This document shows positions 2,855-28,205 of a stretch of DNA of 29,113 nucleotides, in pieces. The notes under the pieces were generated by a model. That model saw nothing but the letters and a program-made list of their open reading frames with translations. It did not search any database and was not told the DNA's origin. Positions within the stretch are counted from its first letter, which is position 1; each line of letters opens with the position of its first letter. The translations under genes were made by a program, and so were the position numbers. Source of the DNA: a virus; IMG/VR virus record IMGVR_UViG_3300035703_001628, positions 1 to 29,113 of that record; one strand, 5' to 3'.

Positions 2855-3839
2855 TTATTGTGATGCCGTAGTAGACCTCCAGTCAGGTGATACTGGGAAA
2901 GGTAAGGTTACTCATTCTTTACTAAGTAGTGGAGAGTACGACCTAGTTCTCCGATATAATGGTGGCTCGAATGCTGGACATACTATCTACCACAATGGTA
3001 AGAAAATTGTCACACATCAAGTGCCAGCTGGAGTTCTCTACGGCATCCGCTCTCTTATTGGTGTCGGGTGTGTTGTTAATATAGAGAAGTTGTTAGATGA
3101 GATTCAGATGCTTGAATCTAATGGTATCGATACTACAGGTCTGATCTATGTTGACAAGAGATCACATATCGTTTTGCAAGACCATGTTGATGAAGATAAT
3201 AAAGACACAGCAATCGGTACTACAAAGCAAGGTATAGGCCCAGCGTATAGGTGCAAGTATGGTAGAACTGGTGTCCGCATTGGCGACACTCTTTGGCGCA
3301 ACAGTAATCGTTTTACTGTTGTTGATAGTATTAGCCTTTTTGATGGCGCTCGTATTCTTGCTGAGGGTGCTCAGGGTTTTGCTCTCGATATTGACTGGGG
3401 GGATTATCCTTATGTTACTAGTTCTCATTGCACTGTGGGTTCTGTTTGCCTGAATGGTGTATCACCAAGAAAGATCAGAAAGATCTATGGAGTTGCCAAG
3501 GCATATGAAACTTATGTTGGCACCAAAGAGTTTGGTATGCATTGTGATGATCTCAAAAAGGTTCAGGAACTAGGACAAGAGTTTGGAGCTACAACTGGCC
3601 GTCCAAGAAAGTGTAATTGGGTAAATGTTGATAGTCTTGCATATGCAGCAAAGGTTAATGATATCACACATCTTGTTGTTAACAAGATTGATATTCTCGA
3701 TCAGGTTGGCAAGTATGTTTACTACAAAGACGGTAATGAGTATGATGCTGGTAGTAGACTTGGGCTGATTGGTGTAATTGTCGAAGCACTGTCTGATAAT
3801 GTTAAAGTTATTTTCTCGGATACGCCACACACAATATAA
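2847..3839 (+). CDS. compact adenylosuccinate synthetase (PurA/PurZ family)
   Basis: This 330-residue protein shows the PurA signatures in order. The phosphate loop is SGDTGKGK with the general-base Asp at 15. GGSNAGHT carries the catalytic His at 45. Then come AIGTTKQGIGPAY, EGAQGFALDIDWGDYPYVTSS, FGATTGRPRK and NKIDILD. PurA joins IMP and aspartate using GTP. The protein is about 100 residues shorter than E. coli PurA, missing much of the middle and most of the C-terminal domain, as in archaeal PurA and phage PurZ. PurZ makes the 2-aminoadenine precursor from dGMP. The retained Asp15 favours IMP-type chemistry, but I cannot settle PurA versus PurZ. Confidence 0.85.
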   Translation: MINYCDAVVDLQSGDTGKGKVTHSLLSSGEYDLVLRYNGGSNAGHTIYHNGKKIVTHQVPAGVLYGIRSLIGVGCVVNIEKLLDEIQMLESNGIDTTGLIYVDKRSHIVLQDHVDEDNKDTAIGTTKQGIGPAYRCKYGRTGVRIGDTLWRNSNRFTVVDSISLFDGARILAEGAQGFALDIDWGDYPYVTSSHCTVGSVCLNGVSPRKIRKIYGVAKAYETYVGTKEFGMHCDDLKKVQELGQEFGATTGRPRKCNWVNVDSLAYAAKVNDITHLVVNKIDILDQVGKYVYYKDGNEYDAGSRLGLIGVIVEALSDNVKVIFSDTPHTI

Positions 3840-20092: not shown

Positions 20093-20637
20093 AGATCACT
20101 TGTACAACTAAGTTGCCACCAAAGCTTCGCAAGCATGTAGTTGCTTTAACGAAGTTTACAGTTGATACTATCTTCACTAAAGCTCAGAAGAAGAAGCTTG
20201 AGCTAATTAGTATTAGAATTGATAAGACATTGAATGATAGTTCAATCCACAATGTCGATGCTGTTCCATTAGCATACATGGATGCTTTTATCGAAGACTA
20301 TGATGAGAGCCAGAAACCAAGACATTTCGTTATTTGGATCAATCCATTCTTCACTAAGAAGAATCTATCTAAGCAAACTAAGACAACGTTTGCCGAAACA
20401 ATCGTTCATGAGATTGTTCATATTAGACAAGCACTTACTGGCCAGATGAAGCAGATCGTCAAGAACGGTAACATGATGATCAAGTTTCATAAGAAGTACT
20501 ATAAGCTTGATTCGAATGACAACTACTGGTTGTTTCCATGGGAAGTTGAAGCTCGTGGATATGAGAAAGGTGTACTCAATCTCTATTGTATCAAGAATAA
20601 ATGCTTTCAAGAGTTTCCTGAACAACCACTGAAGTAA
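20089..20637 (+). CDS. second SprT-like zinc metallopeptidase
   Basis: ATGA overlap with the gp33-like gene. The 182-residue product has HEIVH (H107, E108, H111) and FPWEVEARGYEKG as a third-ligand block, the same arrangement as the 18467 protein. Overall identity outside the motifs looks low, so this is an old duplication or separate gain. It lies directly after gp33 and before the carbamoyltransferase set. Confidence 0.75.
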   Translation: MKITCTTKLPPKLRKHVVALTKFTVDTIFTKAQKKKLELISIRIDKTLNDSSIHNVDAVPLAYMDAFIEDYDESQKPRHFVIWINPFFTKKNLSKQTKTTFAETIVHEIVHIRQALTGQMKQIVKNGNMMIKFHKKYYKLDSNDNYWLFPWEVEARGYEKGVLNLYCIKNKCFQEFPEQPLK

Positions 20638-21635
20638 TGTTCACTCTTGGTATCAATCTATCACACCACTCATCAATAGCACTTCTTAAAGACAATGAAG
20701 TGCTTTTGTTTATACATGAAGAGAGATTAAATAGAGACAAGTACCATAGAGGTTTACCATATAGGTCTCTTGATCTAATTAAAAATTATACTAACAACAT
20801 TGATAGTGTAATCCAAGTTAGTGGTTCTACTGACAATCTTAAAGCAATAGTTAAGTACCTAGCTGACCAAAACGTTGATATTACTACCTTTAGGAATGAC
20901 GGTAGTCTTCACCATATGTCACATGCAGCTGCTGGATTCTTCATGTCGCACTTCGATACTGCTACTGTAGTAGTTATTGATGGTGCTGGAGCATTGTATA
21001 GGCTCAACAAATCTAATGTCAGAATATCAGAAACCACATCACTATATGATGCCAGGTTTCCTCAAATCGTATGTACTGATAAACATTTCGTCATAGGTCT
21101 TTACGATAAGAAGCCTTTAGTATATACGGATGATGACAAGAAAGCATTTAGAGCTAAATTCAAGAATTCAAGAGTTAGTATAACAGAAGCGCTCGATATT
21201 GGGTGGAAGTATGCCGAGGTAACATCCAGCATTGGGTTTGGTACATTCGGTGAAGGTAAGACGATGGGCCTTTCTGCTTACGGCCATAAACCTACAACAG
21301 ATCAAAATGTCAACAAAGCCTATAACATTCAAAAGGAACTTGAGGCAGTGTTTGTCCATCTAGCTAGTAAAATTAAAACAGACAATGTTGTGCTAAGTGG
21401 TGGCTGTGCTCTAAACATTCTTGGCAATTCCTTAATTAAGAAGACATACTCCAACCTCAATGTATTTGTTGATCCAATAGCAGCTGATGGCACAGTTGCA
21501 TTAGGAGCAGCAGCATATGAGTACTACTCTAAGACCAAGGATATAAATAAATTAGTATTTGGTTTATACCAAGGTCCGCAGTACCAGCTTGAGAAAAATT
21601 ACATATATGAATGTGCAAGAAAATATTCAGTATAA
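20637..21635 (+). CDS. carbamoyltransferase N-terminal (Kae1-like) half
   Basis: The 332-residue product matches the first domain of NodU/CmcH/TobZ O-carbamoyltransferases: MFTLGINLSHHSSIALL, the metal ligands H92 and H96 (LHHMSHAAAG), D115 (VVIDGAG), GEGKTMGLSAYG, LSGGCALNILGN and PIAADGTVALGAA. This domain moves carbamoyl from carbamoyl-adenylate to the acceptor. The frame ends just after the GPQY linker, where a full-length enzyme would continue. The C-terminal half follows in the +1 frame. A one-base change near 21625-21640 would join them. Confidence 0.85.
   Translation: MFTLGINLSHHSSIALLKDNEVLLFIHEERLNRDKYHRGLPYRSLDLIKNYTNNIDSVIQVSGSTDNLKAIVKYLADQNVDITTFRNDGSLHHMSHAAAGFFMSHFDTATVVVIDGAGALYRLNKSNVRISETTSLYDARFPQIVCTDKHFVIGLYDKKPLVYTDDDKKAFRAKFKNSRVSITEALDIGWKYAEVTSSIGFGTFGEGKTMGLSAYGHKPTTDQNVNKAYNIQKELEAVFVHLASKIKTDNVVLSGGCALNILGNSLIKKTYSNLNVFVDPIAADGTVALGAAAYEYYSKTKDINKLVFGLYQGPQYQLEKNYIYECARKYSV
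21542..21549 (+). promoter_or_regulatory. TATAAATA octamer before the carbamoyltransferase C half
   Basis: An exact late octamer lies inside the N-half gene, 58 nt before the ATG at 21607. If used it would let the C-terminal half be transcribed on its own. Confidence 0.35.
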
Positions 21636-22164
21636 GGATGTTGCTAGTTTACTGAATGAAAGAAAGCTGGTAGCAATCTTTCAAGGTAGATCAGAAAGTG
21701 GTCCAAGAGCATTAGGCAACAGATCAATGCTCTACACTCCTACAGATCCAAACGGTAGAGACCATGTCAATAAGATTAAAGGTAGAGAGTACTTTAGGCC
21801 ACTAGCTGCGTCAATGATGCTAGAGTATGCGAATGATTGGTTCGATATGCTTGGCATTCCTGAATCGCCTTATATGACTTTCTCCTTCACTTGTAAAGAA
21901 GATAAGAAGCATATCATCCCGTCTGTAATCCATGTTGATGGATCTTGTAGAATTCAAACTGTTACAGAGCAGCAAAACTTCCACTACTATAATCTAATCA
22001 AGGCATTCTATCAATTGACTGGCGTGCCAATGGTTCTTAATACATCGTTGAATCTGGCAGGTGAACCACTTGTAGAAACTATTGACGATACATTTAACAC
22101 ATTTACAAAGTCTAAAATAGACCATCTCTACCTACCTGAGTTAGAGTTGCTTGTTTCCAAATGA
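21607..22164 (+). CDS. carbamoyltransferase C-terminal (YrdC-like) half
   Basis: Start taken at ATG 21607 (MNVQENIQYKDVASLL), inside the end of the N half; no strong ribosome site is seen. The 185-residue product holds the complete second domain: FQGRSESGPRALGNRSML, KGREYFRPLAASMM, HVDGSCRIQTV, TGVPMVLNTSLNLAGEP and LDHLYLPE-like end (here IDHLYLPELEL). In TobZ this YrdC-like domain makes carbamoyl-adenylate. It could be a separate subunit or the product of frameshifting from the N half. Its stop overlaps the next start. Confidence 0.82.
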   Translation: MNVQENIQYKDVASLLNERKLVAIFQGRSESGPRALGNRSMLYTPTDPNGRDHVNKIKGREYFRPLAASMMLEYANDWFDMLGIPESPYMTFSFTCKEDKKHIIPSVIHVDGSCRIQTVTEQQNFHYYNLIKAFYQLTGVPMVLNTSLNLAGEPLVETIDDTFNTFTKSKIDHLYLPELELLVSK

Positions 22165-23366
22165 GCTACTATACACTAGCAATATCATCATCCAACCATG
22201 ATTCATCTATTTGTCTTCTTAAAGACAGTGAGATAGTTGTTGCCTTTTCCTGTGAAAGAACTAATAAGATGAAACACACTCAAAGGGTGGAGCAGTGTGA
22301 TATTGATGTAATTGCAAAATATACTAGGACTGTTGATAAGTTGGTCCTTATCAATGTCAACGCGAAGTATGAAAAGTATCCAATGTTTAATGCTTTTGAG
22401 GTATCAGAAACAGTAGAGAGCTTACTAAAGAAAGTAAGGAAAGCTGGAATACAATGTAAAAGGACAGTTGTTGATAATGCCCTACATCATCTTTATCATG
22501 CCGCCGCCGGATACTACACTTCTGGCCTTGATGATGCAATCTGTATTATTATTGATGGCTTTGGTTCAACAGAGCAGCATGAAGATGCTTCATTTGCAGA
22601 AACAACTTCTATCTTCTATGCTAAAGATACCTTTGAGACTCTCCACAAACAAATTTTATATAAGTTCGAGTCACCAAAAAGGACAGGATGGGATAACAAA
22701 AAGCTATCCGATAAGAAGAAGTCCTATAGGTTTCCTGTTACACTCACGACACATCTTGATATTGGTAAGATGTATGGTACAATAACTAGACACATTGGAT
22801 TTTATACTGTCGATGCTGGTAAGACGATGGGTCTATCGGCTTATGGAAAACCAAATAACCTACCATCTATGCTAGTTGATGATACAATCATATCAAATAG
22901 CAATTTGTTCAGATATGATAGTTACATTGATGTTCAATGCTATCCTGAATTAGATAGCCCTGATGACCAAACTAAGAAGAACTTAGCATACAATGTTCAG
23001 AAGGCTCTCGAAAAGATATTTGTAGAAAGAGTTGCATCTGCACTGAAAATCAAGTATAGTAATAATGTAATACTTGGTGGTGGTTGTGCTCTTAACATCT
23101 TAGGAAACTCAGAGGTCAAGAAACACTTTCCTAACACTAATGTGTATCCTGAGCCAATTGCAGCTGATGCTGCTCAATCGATTGGCGCTGCGTTATATCA
23201 TTACAAGTTGGAATTTCCTAATACAAAGTTTAAGAAAATAGATAATGTATACTTTGGTCCTCATTATGAACTTTCGACTGTCAAGCAAAGTCTTCTACAA
23301 CTAGTGGAGCAATACAACAATGAGTCTGGTCTACAGGTCAGTGGTAGCCAACAACAAGGTGGCTGA
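22161..23366 (+). CDS. second carbamoyltransferase N-terminal half, no C half
   Basis: This 401-residue protein is another Kae1-like domain: LAISSSNHDSSICLL, H109 and H113 (LHHLYHAAAG), D132 (IIIDGFGS), GKTMGLSAYG, LGGGCALNILGN and PIAADAAQSIGAA. All metal ligands are kept. It ends 36 residues after GPHY with a polar tail (SGLQVSGSQQQGG), and no YrdC-like domain follows in any frame. It may share the C half at 21607, or act as a decoy or regulatory paralog. It overlaps the C-half gene by 4 nt. Confidence 0.85.
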   Translation: MSYYTLAISSSNHDSSICLLKDSEIVVAFSCERTNKMKHTQRVEQCDIDVIAKYTRTVDKLVLINVNAKYEKYPMFNAFEVSETVESLLKKVRKAGIQCKRTVVDNALHHLYHAAAGYYTSGLDDAICIIIDGFGSTEQHEDASFAETTSIFYAKDTFETLHKQILYKFESPKRTGWDNKKLSDKKKSYRFPVTLTTHLDIGKMYGTITRHIGFYTVDAGKTMGLSAYGKPNNLPSMLVDDTIISNSNLFRYDSYIDVQCYPELDSPDDQTKKNLAYNVQKALEKIFVERVASALKIKYSNNVILGGGCALNILGNSEVKKHFPNTNVYPEPIAADAAQSIGAALYHYKLEFPNTKFKKIDNVYFGPHYELSTVKQSLLQLVEQYNNESGLQVSGSQQQGG

Positions 23367-23627: not shown

Positions 23628-24500
23628 ATGCCTAGAGGCGTTCCTAAAAATGGATTCCGAATGACCAAGCGTCGTAGGAATCAGGGTGTTGCTGTCAAGC
23701 CTGCTCTTGCTCTTATTAAGAGTGTAGAGACGGTTGACCAGATCGAAGAGAAGCTCAATGATCGTTTTAACGCTCTAGAGGTTCTCTCCGAGGCAACCGG
23801 TAAGGGCGTTAACCGTTCACTGATTGTATCGGGACCTGCTGGTCTTGGTAAGTCGTTTACGGTTGAGCAGAAGATGAAGAAGCTCGAGAATGCAGGTCAC
23901 GTTGTGACTTACATTAAGGGCTATGTTCGTCCTCTATCGCTCTACAGGTTGCTCTACAACGCTCGGTTCCAGCACTGTGTGCTAGTATTCGACGATTCGG
24001 ACTCGATCTTTGCAGATGATGTGTCGATGAACCTTTTGAAGGCTGCGTGTGACTCTACGGAGACTCGCAAGCTTCATTGGTTATCGCGCTCTATCGATAA
24101 GATTGAGGATGAGGATGGTGAGCCGATTCCGGCGAACTTTGAGTTCGAAGGTTCGGTGATCTTTATCACGAACTACGACTTTGATGACCTCATTGCTCGT
24201 GGTTCGAGGCTGGCTCCTCACTTTGAGGCTCTAGTCTCGAGATCGCACTACCTTGACCTTGCTATGAAGACGAAGATGGACTATGTCGTTCGTATCAAGC
24301 AAGTCGTCAAGGCTGGTATGCTCCGTGATAAGAACATCTCGGATTATGATGCTGGCATACTTGTTGACTTCGTAGAGTCGAACATGGATAATCTCCGTGA
24401 GTTGTCTTTACGAATGGTCATTAAGTTGGCCACGCTGATGAAGATGGACTATGTTAATTGGCAAAAGTTAGCAAAACAAACTTGTTTTCGAGCCAGTTGA
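23628..24500 (+). CDS. AAA+ ATPase
   Basis: ATG 23628 follows ATGAGG. The 290-residue protein has a basic tail beginning MPRGVPKNGFR, Walker A GPAGLGKS (69-76), Walker B VLVFDDSD (118-125), a sensor-like VIFITNYDF, and a final helical lid. It is a single-module AAA+ enzyme such as those that remodel DNA-protein complexes. The partner is unknown. The 15-base element and separate promoter show it is its own unit, with CGT-type codons as in 8.7-11.6 kb. The next promoter begins in the last codons. Confidence 0.75.
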   Translation: MPRGVPKNGFRMTKRRRNQGVAVKPALALIKSVETVDQIEEKLNDRFNALEVLSEATGKGVNRSLIVSGPAGLGKSFTVEQKMKKLENAGHVVTYIKGYVRPLSLYRLLYNARFQHCVLVFDDSDSIFADDVSMNLLKAACDSTETRKLHWLSRSIDKIEDEDGEPIPANFEFEGSVIFITNYDFDDLIARGSRLAPHFEALVSRSHYLDLAMKTKMDYVVRIKQVVKAGMLRDKNISDYDAGILVDFVESNMDNLRELSLRMVIKLATLMKMDYVNWQKLAKQTCFRAS

Positions 24501-24525
24501 CATACATACTAAACTAGCATATAAT
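24497..24525 (+). promoter_or_regulatory. perfect consensus promoter of the stable-RNA region
   Basis: TTGACA (24497-24502), exactly 17 nt, TATAAT (24520-24525). The -10 lies in the centre of a perfect inverted repeat CTAGCAT-ATA-ATGCTAG (24514-24530), which may be an operator. Confidence 0.9.
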
Positions 24526-24530
24526 GCTAG

Positions 24531-24867
24531 GCCCTGAATAAGACATAGCGCTCTTGTTCAGCTCTTTAAAAATACGAATTCCAATTAGGTGCTTCGCGAC
24601 CTGTCGGCATTTAGTCTAAACATCTTTGTAGACCGACTGGAGTGTTATGCTCGGCTTCCGTTCAGGATGGCTTAACCGCGACCTTATTAACCGGGTGCCC
24701 ACCACCCCCTCATTGTAGGTAGGCCAATTAGTTTCGGCCCGAACTGTTTGTTGTTGTAACGGTGAAAAGGGTGGACCTTTTACAGACTGCTACCTGTTAT
24801 CGTAGCAGCGTGGACTGTCACCACGGAGCATAGTGTGACGCTGGATTAGTAACCAGCACTTATTATT
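24531..24867 (+). ncRNA. structured leader RNA, no gene identified
   Basis: These 337 bases precede the first tRNA and contain no supported ORF. Helices visible by eye are GTCTA/TAGAC near 24615-24635, AAAAGG-GTGGA-CCTTTT (24765-24781), CTGCTAC/GTAGCAG (24787-24808), CGTGG-ACTGTCA-CCACG (24809-24825) and GCTGG/CCAGC (24840-24857). The last three stand side by side like cloverleaf arms, but there is no acceptor stem and no TTC loop, so I do not call a tRNA. Confidence 0.5.
24561..24573 (+). promoter_or_regulatory. boxA-like antitermination sequence
   Basis: GCTCTTTAAAAAT lies about 30 nt after the expected transcription start and resembles the boxA of bacterial rRNA operons (TGCTCTTTAACA). 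It would let polymerase with Nus factors pass the hairpins and long untranslated RNA downstream. Function is inferred from resemblance and position. Confidence 0.5.
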
Positions 24868-24942
24868 GGACCCATCGTCTAACGGTTAGGACATTACCCT
24901 TTCACGGTAAGAATAGGGATTCGAATTCCCTTGGGTTCACCA
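24868..24942 (+). tRNA. tRNA-Glu (anticodon TTC)
   Basis: Acceptor GGACCCA/TGGGTTC with encoded ACCA; anticodon arm TTACC-CTTTCAC-GGTAA; T-loop TTCGAAT. First tRNA of the cluster. Confidence 0.93.
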
Positions 24943-24947
24943 TTTAT

Positions 24948-25075
24948 GTGCGTTTCGTCTAAACAACGGACAGGACAGAGGGCCACATAAGTCTACAGTG
25001 GAAACACAACACTGAAAAGTGCGGTAGCGGTGGAATAACCTCAAAATGCGGGTTCGAATCCCGTAACGCACACCA
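24948..25075 (+). ncRNA. 128-nt tRNA-like RNA with expanded anticodon domain
   Basis: The ends are fully tRNA-like: acceptor GTGCGTT (24948-24954) with AACGCAC (25065-25071) and ACCA, D-arm TCGTCT...CGG...AGGACA, T-arm GCGGG-TTCGAAT-CCCGT. Where a 17-nt anticodon arm should be there are about 70 nt closed by GAGG/CCTC and holding hairpins CCAC/GTGG and CACT-GAAA-AGTG. No 7-nt anticodon loop with T33 is visible. It may be an intron-bearing tRNA or a tRNA mimic that uses tRNA processing. Isotype not assignable. Confidence 0.6.
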
Positions 25076-25081
25076 TATTAC

Positions 25082-25157
25082 GGACCGTTAGCTCAGCTGG
25101 TAGAGCATTTGACTCTTAATCAACAGGTCGTAGGTTCGATCCCTACACGGTCCACCA
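25082..25157 (+). tRNA. tRNA-Lys (anticodon CTT)
   Basis: Acceptor GGACCGT/ACGGTCC plus ACCA; anticodon arm TTTGA-CTCTTAA-TCAAC; canonical GG D-loop and TTCGATC T-loop. Confidence 0.95.
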
Positions 25158-25160
25158 TTT

Positions 25161-25234
25161 GCCGGATTGGTATAACGGAATTACAGCGGTCTCCAAAACC
25201 GTTAACGGGGGTTCGACTCCCTCATCCGGTGCCA
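25161..25234 (+). tRNA. tRNA-Trp (anticodon CCA)
   Basis: Acceptor GCCGGAT/ATCCGGT (G1-U72 wobble) plus GCCA; anticodon arm GCGGT-CTCCAAA-ACCGT. Confidence 0.95.
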
Positions 25235-25247
25235 GCATAGTTATTAT

Positions 25248-25322
25248 TGGCGAGTAGATCAGTGGTAGATCAGTTGACTGTTAATCAACCTGTCGTAGGT
25301 TCGATCCCTACCTCGCCAGCCA
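25248..25322 (+). tRNA. tRNA-Asn (anticodon GTT)
   Basis: Acceptor TGGCGAG/CTCGCCA plus GCCA; anticodon arm GTTGA-CTGTTAA-TCAAC. Confidence 0.95.
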
Positions 25323-25484
25323 TCTTGGTGTCCTGCAGATGCATCTGACGGGTACACACTATCAGTGTTGAGGCTTTTCCGTTACGGGAACACTGATTGA
25401 TATATGAGGTAGAACGGAATGCATTCTATGTTGCGTGGGGGCATAGATAAGAACCAACCTTAAATGGTAGCCCACGCCTTATTT
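25323..25484 (+). ncRNA. structured spacer RNA between tRNA-Asn and tRNA-Ala
   Basis: No ORF. Strong helices: palindrome CAGATGCATCTG inside a GTGT/ACAC hairpin near 25328-25356; ATCAGTGTT/AACACTGAT (25361-25369, 25389-25397) with an inner CCG-TTA-CGG; and GCGTGGG/CCCACGC (25433-25439, 25471-25477). It ends in the TTATTT spacer that also separates the tRNAs, as if processed as its own unit. Identity unknown. Confidence 0.5.
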
Positions 25485-25558
25485 GGGGACGTAAGCTAAC
25501 GGGAAACTGACGCCCTTGCACGGCGTACTTGTGGGTTCGATTCCCACCGTCTCCACCA
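25485..25558 (+). tRNA. tRNA-Ala (anticodon TGC)
   Basis: Acceptor GGGGACG/CGTCTCC with the G3-U70 pair expected for alanine, plus ACCA; anticodon arm ACGCC-CTTGCAC-GGCGT. Confidence 0.95.
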
Positions 25559-25564
25559 TTTTAT

Positions 25565-25721
25565 GAAGAGTCCGAAAGCGAGGTGAATAACCACCAACCT
25601 GGCTGTCGAGGGTGTGTCGCTCTACAACAATTATCGATTCCCTTTGGGGAATGCTGTGGTAGCATGATATGTGTGTAGAGAGCGTTCTGCTCTTAAACGG
25701 ATATGACAGCACTCTTCACCA
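25565..25721 (+). ncRNA. 157-nt structured RNA with tRNA-like ends
   Basis: GAAGAGT (25565-25571) pairs with ACTCTTC (25711-25717), followed by ACCA as in a tRNA. Inside are GCTGTC/GACAGC (25602-25607, 25705-25710, abutting the closing stem), CGCTCTACA/TGTAGAGAGCG (25618-25626, 25674-25684), ATTCCC/GGGAAT (25637-25652) and a TGCT/AGCA hairpin. It has no TTCGA loop. The motif GGTGAATAACC also occurs, nearly the same, in the tRNA-like RNA at 24948. Function unknown. Confidence 0.55.
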
Positions 25722-25991
25722 AACGTGCCATCTAATCAATGGCTAGTCTACCCAGACGATGAGAAACGGTGTGATGTCCGTAGGGTGGTTCCAGTCTAAC
25801 CGAACTGGCGCTGGCAATGCGAAAATCCTCTCTGGTCGGGATGCGGATACCACATTGCGTTAAGTGTTTGTGGTGGGATGACAAAAACCGCCGCAGAGAG
25901 GAAGCAACCTATTTTTGGTGCCTAGAATAGAATCGCGAAAGGATAGTCTAGGTTAAATGCCAACCCTAAGTGGGCGCAGCCGTCTTATTTT
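25722..25991 (+). ncRNA. structured RNA of unknown identity before tRNA-Gln
   Basis: There is no supported ORF in these 270 bases. Helices: CCAGT/ACTGG near 25790-25807; perfect CCTCTCTG/CAGAGAGG (25827-25834, 25894-25901) enclosing ACCACA/TGTGGT (25849-25854, 25869-25874); and CCTAGA/TCTAGG near 25921-25954. GCAATG (25814-25819) can pair with CATTGC (25853-25858) in the inner hairpin, making a pseudoknot. Two TATTTTT spacers suggest separate processed pieces. Not recognised as any tRNA. Confidence 0.5.
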
Positions 25992-26065
25992 TGAGGAGTC
26001 GTCTAACGGCAGGACAGCAGGTTTTGATCCTGCTTATCGTGGTTCGAATCCATGCTCCTCAGCCA
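25992..26065 (+). tRNA. tRNA-Gln (anticodon TTG)
   Basis: Acceptor TGAGGAG/CTCCTCA plus GCCA; anticodon arm GCAGG-TTTTGAT-CCTGC. Confidence 0.94.
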
Positions 26066-26071
26066 AAATTT

Positions 26072-26158
26072 GGACAGGTTGGAGAGCGGTTAAATCCAAT
26101 TGACTGTAAATCAATCACCCTACGGGTTACGCTAGTTCGAATCTAGCCCTGTCCACCA
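26072..26158 (+). tRNA. tRNA-Tyr (anticodon GTA)
   Basis: Acceptor GGACAGG/CCTGTCC plus ACCA; anticodon arm ATTGA-CTGTAAA-TCAAT; long variable arm CACCCTACGGGTTAC as expected for class II. Confidence 0.95.
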
Positions 26159-26163
26159 CACTT

Positions 26164-26239
26164 GGGACAATAGCTCAGTTGGTAGAGCAAAGTGTTGATA
26201 ACGCTTAGGTCCATGGTTCAAGCCCATGTTGTCCCACCA
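26164..26239 (+). tRNA. tRNA-Ile (anticodon GAT)
   Basis: Acceptor GGGACAA/TTGTCCC plus ACCA; anticodon arm AAGTG-TTGATAA-CGCTT. Confidence 0.94.
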
Positions 26240-26244
26240 TCTTT

Positions 26245-26275
26245 GGCTCGGTAGTTCAGTTAATGACTGTAACCT
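26245..26275 (+). pseudogene. truncated tRNA 5' fragment
   Basis: GGCTCGGTAGTTCAGTT has the form of a tRNA acceptor strand and D-arm, spaced from tRNA-Ile like the other cluster members, but no CCGAGCC partner, anticodon arm or T-arm follows. The HNH endonuclease gene begins 50 nt later, so it may be the remnant of a tRNA broken when that gene arrived. Confidence 0.5.
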
Positions 26276-26302
26276 AATAAAATCCTGTGACATTCAGAAT
26301 CT

Positions 26303-26310
26303 TATAAATA
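26303..26310 (+). promoter_or_regulatory. TATAAATA late promoter of the HNH gene
   Basis: Exact octamer within CTTATAAATAAG (26301-26312), the same 12-mer as at 28078. It lies 16 nt before the HNH ATG, with GGAGG between them. Confidence 0.45.
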
Positions 26311-26326
26311 AGATTGGAGGTGTCAT

Positions 26327-26740
26327 ATGGAAACAAAAACATGTTCAAATTGCAAGCAAACAAAACCCATAACCTTTTTTAGCAAATATAAAAGATCTAA
26401 GGATGGGTATGATTATCGTTGCAAAGAGTGTAGCAAGCAGTCAAATAAAGCCTGGTGCGACAACAATTGGGATAAAAAAATGTCCCAGCAACGTGATAGA
26501 ACTAAATTGCTTGTGGAACAGGTAAGGAATTATAAACAATCATTCGGTTGTAAATTCTGTGACGAAAATGAGCCAGTATGCTTAGAGCTGCATCACTTAG
26601 ATCCTACTGCTAAAGAAATTAACCCCTCCGATATGGCAGGTAGGGGCTGGAGTTGGGAAAGGATGCAAAGAGAACTCAGTAAATGTATTGTATTATGTTC
26701 TAACTGTCATAAAAAAGTACATGCTGGTCTGTTAGTATAG
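26327..26740 (+). CDS. HNH endonuclease (probable homing nuclease)
   Basis: The 137-residue protein starts METKTCSNCKQTKPITFF, a CxxC zinc ribbon (C6, C9) completed by C32/C35. It ends in a zinc-stabilised HNH nuclease: CKFC (C75, C78), LELHHLDP (H89, H90), then CIVLCSNCHKKVH (C124, C127, H128, H132). Such free-standing HNH genes in tRNA clusters are usually mobile. GGAGG precedes the ATG. The stop codon TAG (26738-26740) lies inside tRNA-Asp, so the last five codons double as the tRNA 5' end. Confidence 0.85.
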   Translation: METKTCSNCKQTKPITFFSKYKRSKDGYDYRCKECSKQSNKAWCDNNWDKKMSQQRDRTKLLVEQVRNYKQSFGCKFCDENEPVCLELHHLDPTAKEINPSDMAGRGWSWERMQRELSKCIVLCSNCHKKVHAGLLV

Positions 26741-28075: not shown

Positions 28076-28205
28076 GTCTTATAAATAAGTTTTACCCGCC
28101 CTACCTTTCGGTGTAAGGTTTGTCGCATAGCGATGGGTTTTTCGTAAATAGGAATCTAGTACATAGTGCGCACTGTGTGACGATAGATGAACCGAATCTT
28201 TCTAT
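28076..28205 (+). other. structured spacer with TATAAATA, no gene seen
   Basis: It begins with CTTATAAATAAG (28078-28089), identical to 26301-26312. Then come a TCGC-ATA-GCGA hairpin followed by GGGTTTTT, possibly a terminator, and the near-palindrome CATAGTGCGCACTGTG around 28163-28176. No ORF supported. Confidence 0.4.

Follow-up and report, generated by a model that had tools for sequence, protein, structure and literature searches.

A covariation-supported RNA family without a match in Rfam 15 in viral tRNA arrays

The 433 bases lying between tRNA-Ala, which ends at position 25558, and tRNA-Gln, which starts at position 25992 (both as called by ARAGORN), in an IMG/VR record of an uncultivated large bacterial virus are a composite of at least two unrelated structured RNAs, here called X and Y, and a remnant, and not the single RNA of over 400 bases that an earlier note on this DNA had taken them for. 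Y represents what, judging from sequence comparisons, is a new RNA family without a match in Rfam 15, and the “new class” proposed in that note is supported by this and by a structure backed by compensatory changes, which the alignment of relatives, suggested there as a check, yielded in abundance. The best explanation, to which we would assign a probability of roughly 0.55, is that Y would be a stable, trans-acting phage noncoding RNA of approximately 200 nt, cut from a polycistronic tRNA transcript. “The window” hereafter denotes the whole 29,113-base record, of which positions 25559-25991 were studied; L-numbers denote loci.

Results

The slot between tRNA-Ala and tRNA-Gln

The stretch belongs to an array of same-strand tRNAs downstream of a perfect promoter consensus, the TTGACA of which is kept at the array head in L002-L006, the second hexamer there being TATAAT or GATAAT. 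The elements of this part of the window are, in order:

24497-24525, + strand: sigma-70 promoter consensus TTGACA-N17-TATAAT, 12/12 match, heading the tRNA array
25323-25484, + strand: element W, a candidate third structured RNA, between tRNA-Asn and tRNA-Ala (nine-sequence alignment)
25565-25717, + strand: element X, a candidate structured RNA closed by GAAGAGT/ACTCTTC, with relatives and compensatory changes
25722-25906, + strand: element Y, member of a structured RNA family of about 200 nt, recovered by a held-out model
25907-25991, + strand: remainder of 85 bases between Y and tRNA-Gln, no relative found, hairpin at 25972-25985

The absence of an open reading frame noted earlier holds for the + strand at a threshold of 60 aa, an antisense 77-codon GTG ORF spanning 25479-25712, and the long perfect helix was likewise correctly placed, with CCTCTCTG at 25827 and CAGAGAGG at 25894; AT-rich spacers of the kind separating the tRNAs had also been described, but X and Y adjoin without one. 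Single-sequence folding of the 433 nt (z -2.68; 1/100 shuffles as good) offers moderate support for structure, which is proven by covariation in relatives and not by folding energy. The remainder after Y contains a weak terminator-like hairpin (25972-25985), folds no better than shuffles over 25911-25991 (z -0.27, 70/200 as good), and, when 25907-25991 was used for a pattern search, gave a single match, L355, sharing 17 bases within an unrelated region without tRNAs.

The contents of this slot differ among relatives, as seen at 28 loci found via the neighbouring ATPase gene: that of L009 holds Y and another element of about 90 nt, that of L005 is without Y and holds only a different cassette of about 120 nt and a short element, and that of L003 holds a cassette and a hammerhead-like motif. 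In L114, Y (a 90% match to that of the window) stands directly 3' of tRNA-Ala, without X. The motif in L003 (10037-10085, between tRNA-Ala and tRNA-Gln) is a type I hammerhead ribozyme candidate at 33.9 bits (cut-off 34; E 7.8e-07). T4 rnaD was considered as a relative of the L003/L005 cassette and rejected, as there is a shared stretch, but 14 and 24 of 300 shuffles equal its score.

Recovery and extent of the Y family

Family members were gathered from IMG/VR by two scans, one with an exact 14-base pattern, which returned at least 119 stretches, about a third of them holding a real Y, and one with an independent pattern, which returned at least 120 stretches, 117 of those listed carrying the first core in its original or a variant form, and three (L170, L175 and L189) having no recognisable core. 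The family thus assembled comprises at least 136 loci, 133 of which have both ends called and yield at least 104 distinct sequences, with a median length of 199 nt; its size is a lower bound, and, the loci having been gathered by exact patterns, invariance inside those patterns is partly a product of selection.

A covariance model, R1, built from 22 members with the window left out, places the Y of the window in the family, finding it at exactly 25722-25906 with 119.3 bits and an E-value of 6.5e-38. Run on 38 other sources, it finds Y in L009, L010, L011, L263, L119, L264, L077 and L151, the three remaining matches scoring 10-11 bits. An 18-base pattern scan of bacterial genomes returned 88 stretches, all motif-checked, and among the 80/88 on which R1 was run, a 5.9-kb contig from a Bacteroidota MAG (L277) is a real Y at 144.8 bits, the next best scoring 16.2. 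Queries from L046, L226 and L117 gave no real match among 50,697 records of isolated phages, only 21-24-base pieces in genes, and the sole result for the stretch from the window itself was a 20-base piece, present in four Erwinia phage records.

Y is matched by no family in Rfam 15, either at the gathering level or, over 24500-26330, at E up to 10; at the latter setting, the stretch gives only weak tmRNA_permuted (25531-25660) and sX4 (25498-25617) matches, both of which start in tRNA-Ala and spare Y. At 28 other loci, the non-tRNA matches at the gathering level are COG2908 RNA, GOLLD, tmRNA and one group I intron, a result that in part rests on the best 150 of 190 matches and includes one unrelated locus, L355. 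No description of the family was found in the literature searched, subscription journals and preprints lying mostly outside it, which makes this weak evidence of novelty.

Fold and covariation of Y

For the alignment, designated A1, filtering the 136 listed loci by length and start left 100, from which 38 sequences below 88% identity were taken. A 40-pair structure with two pseudoknots is paired in 95.8% of its 1507 cells, and two-sided changes occur in 29/40 pairs and in 265 cells, as opposed to 71.7 ± 8.0 cells after shuffling (0/500 as high). The covariation score is 0.501 against 0.155 ± 0.009, and pairing falls to 36-50% when one strand is slid by 1-3 columns. RNAalifold, applied independently, gives two-sided changes in 26/40 pairs, and the + orientation is the one with many G-U and few A-C pairs. 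When the Y of the window is folded alone, its energy does not stand out from that of shuffles (z -0.33; 71/200 as good). Y consists of a compact 5' domain with two pseudoknots, the second of them (PK2) being likely rather than proven, and a 3' arm, with the following parts:

25727-25731 with 25739-25743, + strand: helix H1, 5/5 pairs two-sided, 100% of cells paired
25746-25749 with 25754-25757, + strand: helix H2, its loop (25750-25753) forming PK1
25750-25753 (ACCC, H2 loop) with 25783-25786 (GGGT), + strand: pseudoknot PK1, covarying pairs
25766-25769 with 25778-25781, + strand: helix H3, 5 modelled pairs, all two-sided, 88% of cells paired
25787-25789 (GGT) with 25799-25801 (ACC, H4 loop), + strand: likely pseudoknot PK2, 2/3 pairs two-sided
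25791-25795 with 25804-25808, + strand: helix H4, 4/5 pairs two-sided
25809-25821, + strand: mini-hairpin CGC-TGGCAAT-GCG, third pair C-G to U-A in 3/38
25827-25901, + strand: 3' domain, H5 and H6
25827-25834 with 25894-25901, + strand: helix H5, CCTCTCTG/CAGAGAGG, two registers
25843-25846 with 25888-25891, + strand: helix H6, in the 3' domain

A possible pseudoknot had been tied to the CCTCTCTG/CAGAGAGG helix; that helix is nested, and the pseudoknotting is found in the 5' domain. In PK1, the outer pair changes from A-U to G-C in 2/38 sequences and the next from C-G to U-A in 4/38, the pairing being GTCC with GGAC in L009, L106, L277 and L037 and broken in L151. PK2 is turned round, with a shifted register, in L009, L037 and L106; L277 retains only part of it, and L151 lacks it. 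The C-G to U-A exchange of the mini-hairpin recurs in an independent sample. Because of how MAFFT placed gaps and because H5 occurs in two registers, the counts for the H5 and pseudoknot columns are conservative; recounted by type, H5 is fully paired in the 25 type I sequences and has one unpaired cell in the 13 of type II.

Genomic context and the tRNA junction

The 136 listed loci correspond to 112 distinct contexts, of which 95 have a scorable 5' motif. A tRNA lies within 1 kb of Y in 99/112 of the contexts listed; the other 13, some of them owing to a nearby contig end, count against the reading preferred here. Every neighbouring tRNA is on the strand of Y (629, with 0 opposite, across the 112 contexts). 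The upstream tRNA, where typed, is of varying specificity (Tyr 20, Ser 7, Ala 4 and others, of 48), and Y is therefore not linked to any single tRNA.

In 47/95 scored loci, the 3' end of a tRNA lies no more than 12 nt upstream, and in 35/47 of these the gap to the ACGT of Y is exactly 2 nt, whereas the tRNA-tRNA spacers of up to 30 nt at the same loci peak at 6 nt (124/656, summed from listed counts). The 48/95 scored loci without a tRNA within those 12 nt again count against the main reading. CCA stands 0-2 nt before ACGT in 45/95, followed by GA-ACGT in 27/45; where CCA is missing from that position (50 loci), ACGT is still preceded by A, A, G and A in most, and so the CCA partly overlaps the 5' motif belonging to Y itself. 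Where a tRNA directly follows, its 5' end is usually a few bases past the 3' end of Y, and TTTT occurs within 10 nt of that end in 42/112 contexts. An ORF of at least 60 aa covers more than half of Y in 17/112 contexts in sense and in 48/112 in antisense, which counts against the main reading as well.

When 18 large records were searched whole, Y was present in 17, once in 16 of them and twice in a 524-kb record; the L003 record, searched whole, has no Y. A terminase domain was found in 12/18 of the large records.

Elements X and W

Relatives of X occur at five distinct loci (L106, L077/L264, L119/L263, L265 and L266). In a six-sequence alignment, 12/43 predicted pairs show two-sided changes, including three of the seven pairs that close the element, and single-sequence folding gives z -2.38, with 2/200 shuffles as good. 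The closure by GAAGAGT (25565) and ACTCTTC (25711) with ACCA thereafter is present in the window as described earlier, but the ACCA is not conserved in X: the copies in L077, L263, L264, L265 and L266 end in ACTAATGG and that in L106 ends in ACCTTATT, the L119 copy meeting the contig end. The idea of the ACCA end as a tRNA mimic was accordingly rejected, since other copies are without it. For W, the alignment of nine sequences has two-sided changes in 6/19 predicted pairs. Both alignments being small samples of close relatives, X and W are good candidates for structured-RNA families, rather than proven ones.

Other features of the window and its relatives

At 1174-1505, the window has a phage tmRNA, matching beta_tmRNA and tmRNA_permuted, with the tag given by ARAGORN as ANDDYYEMALAA; tmRNA models are matched in three Y-bearing contigs as well (L043, L139 and L058). 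A tRNA-like element missed by ARAGORN lies at 24946-25075, with the acceptor GTGCGTT/AACGCAC, a T-arm and ACCA; its length is about 130 nt, the expected anticodon region being occupied by a large insert, and its folding z is -1.68. T4 rnaC scores above all 300 shuffles against this element, a similarity that probably stems from the T-arm. At 26245-26740, an HNH endonuclease gene (26327-26740) comes after an apparent tRNA 5' half, as if a tRNA had been interrupted by a homing element. Rfam COG2908 RNA is matched inside the tRNA array at 28094-28138 (70.7 bits), and also in L003, L004 and L005. Another element, probably a further structured RNA, recurs downstream of Y in L030, L043, L049, L067, L101 and L116. 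Two carbamoyltransferase-like genes lie side by side at 20637-23366, and the first of them seems to be broken into two overlapping frames.

Discussion

Phage tRNA arrays are known to hold a few unexplained RNAs, namely, RNAs C and D of T4, GOLLD and ROOL. The T4 rnaC (RNA C, species 1; 139 nt) and rnaD (RNA D, species 2; 119 nt) resemble Y in lying in a tRNA cluster on the same strand, and rnaD starts one base after the 3' end of tRNA-Arg. In the available text of PMC3014915 and PMC9697503, they are expressed from the tRNA region and their role is left unexplained. Y has no significant similarity to either, its score being reached by 300/300 shuffles for rnaC and 29/300 for rnaD, as judged with one aligner and shuffles that keep base composition only.

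GOLLD (RF02032), which, in the accessible part of PMC12286853, often exceeds 800 nt and bound ribosomes in pull-downs, is like Y an ornate, structured RNA in or near phage tRNA arrays, and ROOL, described there as a phage and prophage RNA near tRNA islands with multiple pseudoknots, shares with Y, as far as that description goes, both the pseudoknots and the location. That the stretch is related to one of them, as the earlier note had considered on the strength of this kind of location, or is a piece of one, is a very remote prospect and was rejected as far as Rfam models go: no Rfam family reaches its gathering score in 25559-25991; the window has no match to RF02032 at >150 bits, where L046 as a positive control gives 201.7 bits away from Y, and none to the ROOL model of Rfam 15, run without a positive control; GOLLD and Y, the latter only about 200 nt, do not match each other; and in L046 a genuine GOLLD (1864-2326) and Y (3326-3525) occupy one array about 1 kb apart and are therefore different RNAs. 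The tRNA model also matches L046 at 1927-1998, inside GOLLD. The notion of decayed tRNA genes, which the earlier note had named as what would undo its proposal and for which the location and the ACCA after X might speak, can be given almost no weight and was likewise rejected: neither ARAGORN nor Rfam at E up to 10 finds any tRNA fold or sequence remnant within the stretch, Y is strongly constrained, and other X copies lack ACCA.

The main rival, unlikely in our estimation yet deserving of serious weight, is that Y is a new self-cleaving ribozyme cutting before its own first base and freeing the 3' end of the upstream tRNA; that it would in addition persist as a functional RNA, forming a new ribozyme class that cleaves itself at the CCA/Y junction, seems somewhat less probable still. 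This would fit the tight junction (35/47 at one distance, CCA 0-2 nt before ACGT in 45/95), a 5' motif, (A/C)A-GA-ACGT, kept even without a tRNA in front, and a compact core with pseudoknots and numerous unpaired bases that do not vary; the relative L003 has a hammerhead-like element in the Ala-Gln slot; and theta ribozymes, HDV-like and, in the portion of PMC10879173 available, proposed to free phage tRNA 3' ends by self-cleavage, place their cleavage site at such ends. They resemble Y in having the first base set against a tRNA 3' end and, according to the same portion of that source, a double-pseudoknot core, and at 47/95 scored loci the Y junction would put a theta-like cleavage site no more than 5 nt from the 3' end of a tRNA, the cleavage itself being putative. 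Y differs, however, in having no nested HDV P1 (its 5' end enters hairpin H1), in its length, long for a small nucleolytic ribozyme, and in being single-copy even though arrays reach about 30 tRNAs; the junction is without a tRNA in half of the scored loci, no ribozyme family in Rfam 15 matches Y, and its HDV-like models, from which theta may be absent, give no match at E up to 10 over 24500-26330. That Y controls the tRNA operon in cis (as a riboswitch, an attenuator or a processing stop), for which the embedding of Y in the operon, its many invariant unpaired bases and the TTTT within 10 nt of its 3' end (42/112) could be invoked, is decidedly improbable, given that it is found at different places in the arrays, tRNAs lying on either side of it, and that no terminator was scored at its end in the window. 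Slightly harder to credit is that Y and X are mobile RNA cassettes spreading between tRNA arrays mainly for their own sake: the slot is filled differently across relatives, the upstream tRNA type varies and an HNH endonuclease gene is nearby (26327-26740), but Y is single-copy, found on the tRNA strand only, without an open frame of its own and strongly conserved in its fold.

As a trans-acting noncoding RNA, the explanation preferred here, Y would be made as one unit of the polycistronic tRNA transcript, and its ends would be set by the maturation of the neighbouring tRNAs, the CCA of the upstream one abutting its first base; the shared strand, the promoter, the position in the array and the tight tRNA junction argue for such co-production and release by processing. 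It would then fold into the compact 5' domain held by two pseudoknots, plus the 3' arm, and act in trans, most likely by binding, in the course of takeover, a component of the translation or tRNA machinery of either the host or the phage, in line with what is suspected for other phage RNAs of tRNA arrays. The single copy and the changing neighbour tRNA point to trans action and not to service to one tRNA, and the invariant unpaired bases would suggest a partner or an active site.

Should Y be a ribozyme class after all, large phages would process part of their tRNA operon with a catalytic RNA of their own. Together with Y, X and W suggest that such arrays are cassettes combining tRNAs with several other structured RNAs. 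The Y family, conserved in more than 100 viral contigs of up to 524 kb, adds to the RNAs of phage tRNA arrays, and Y is of a size suited to cryo-EM and simple biochemistry; with it, what such RNAs do, a question of long standing, becomes directly testable.
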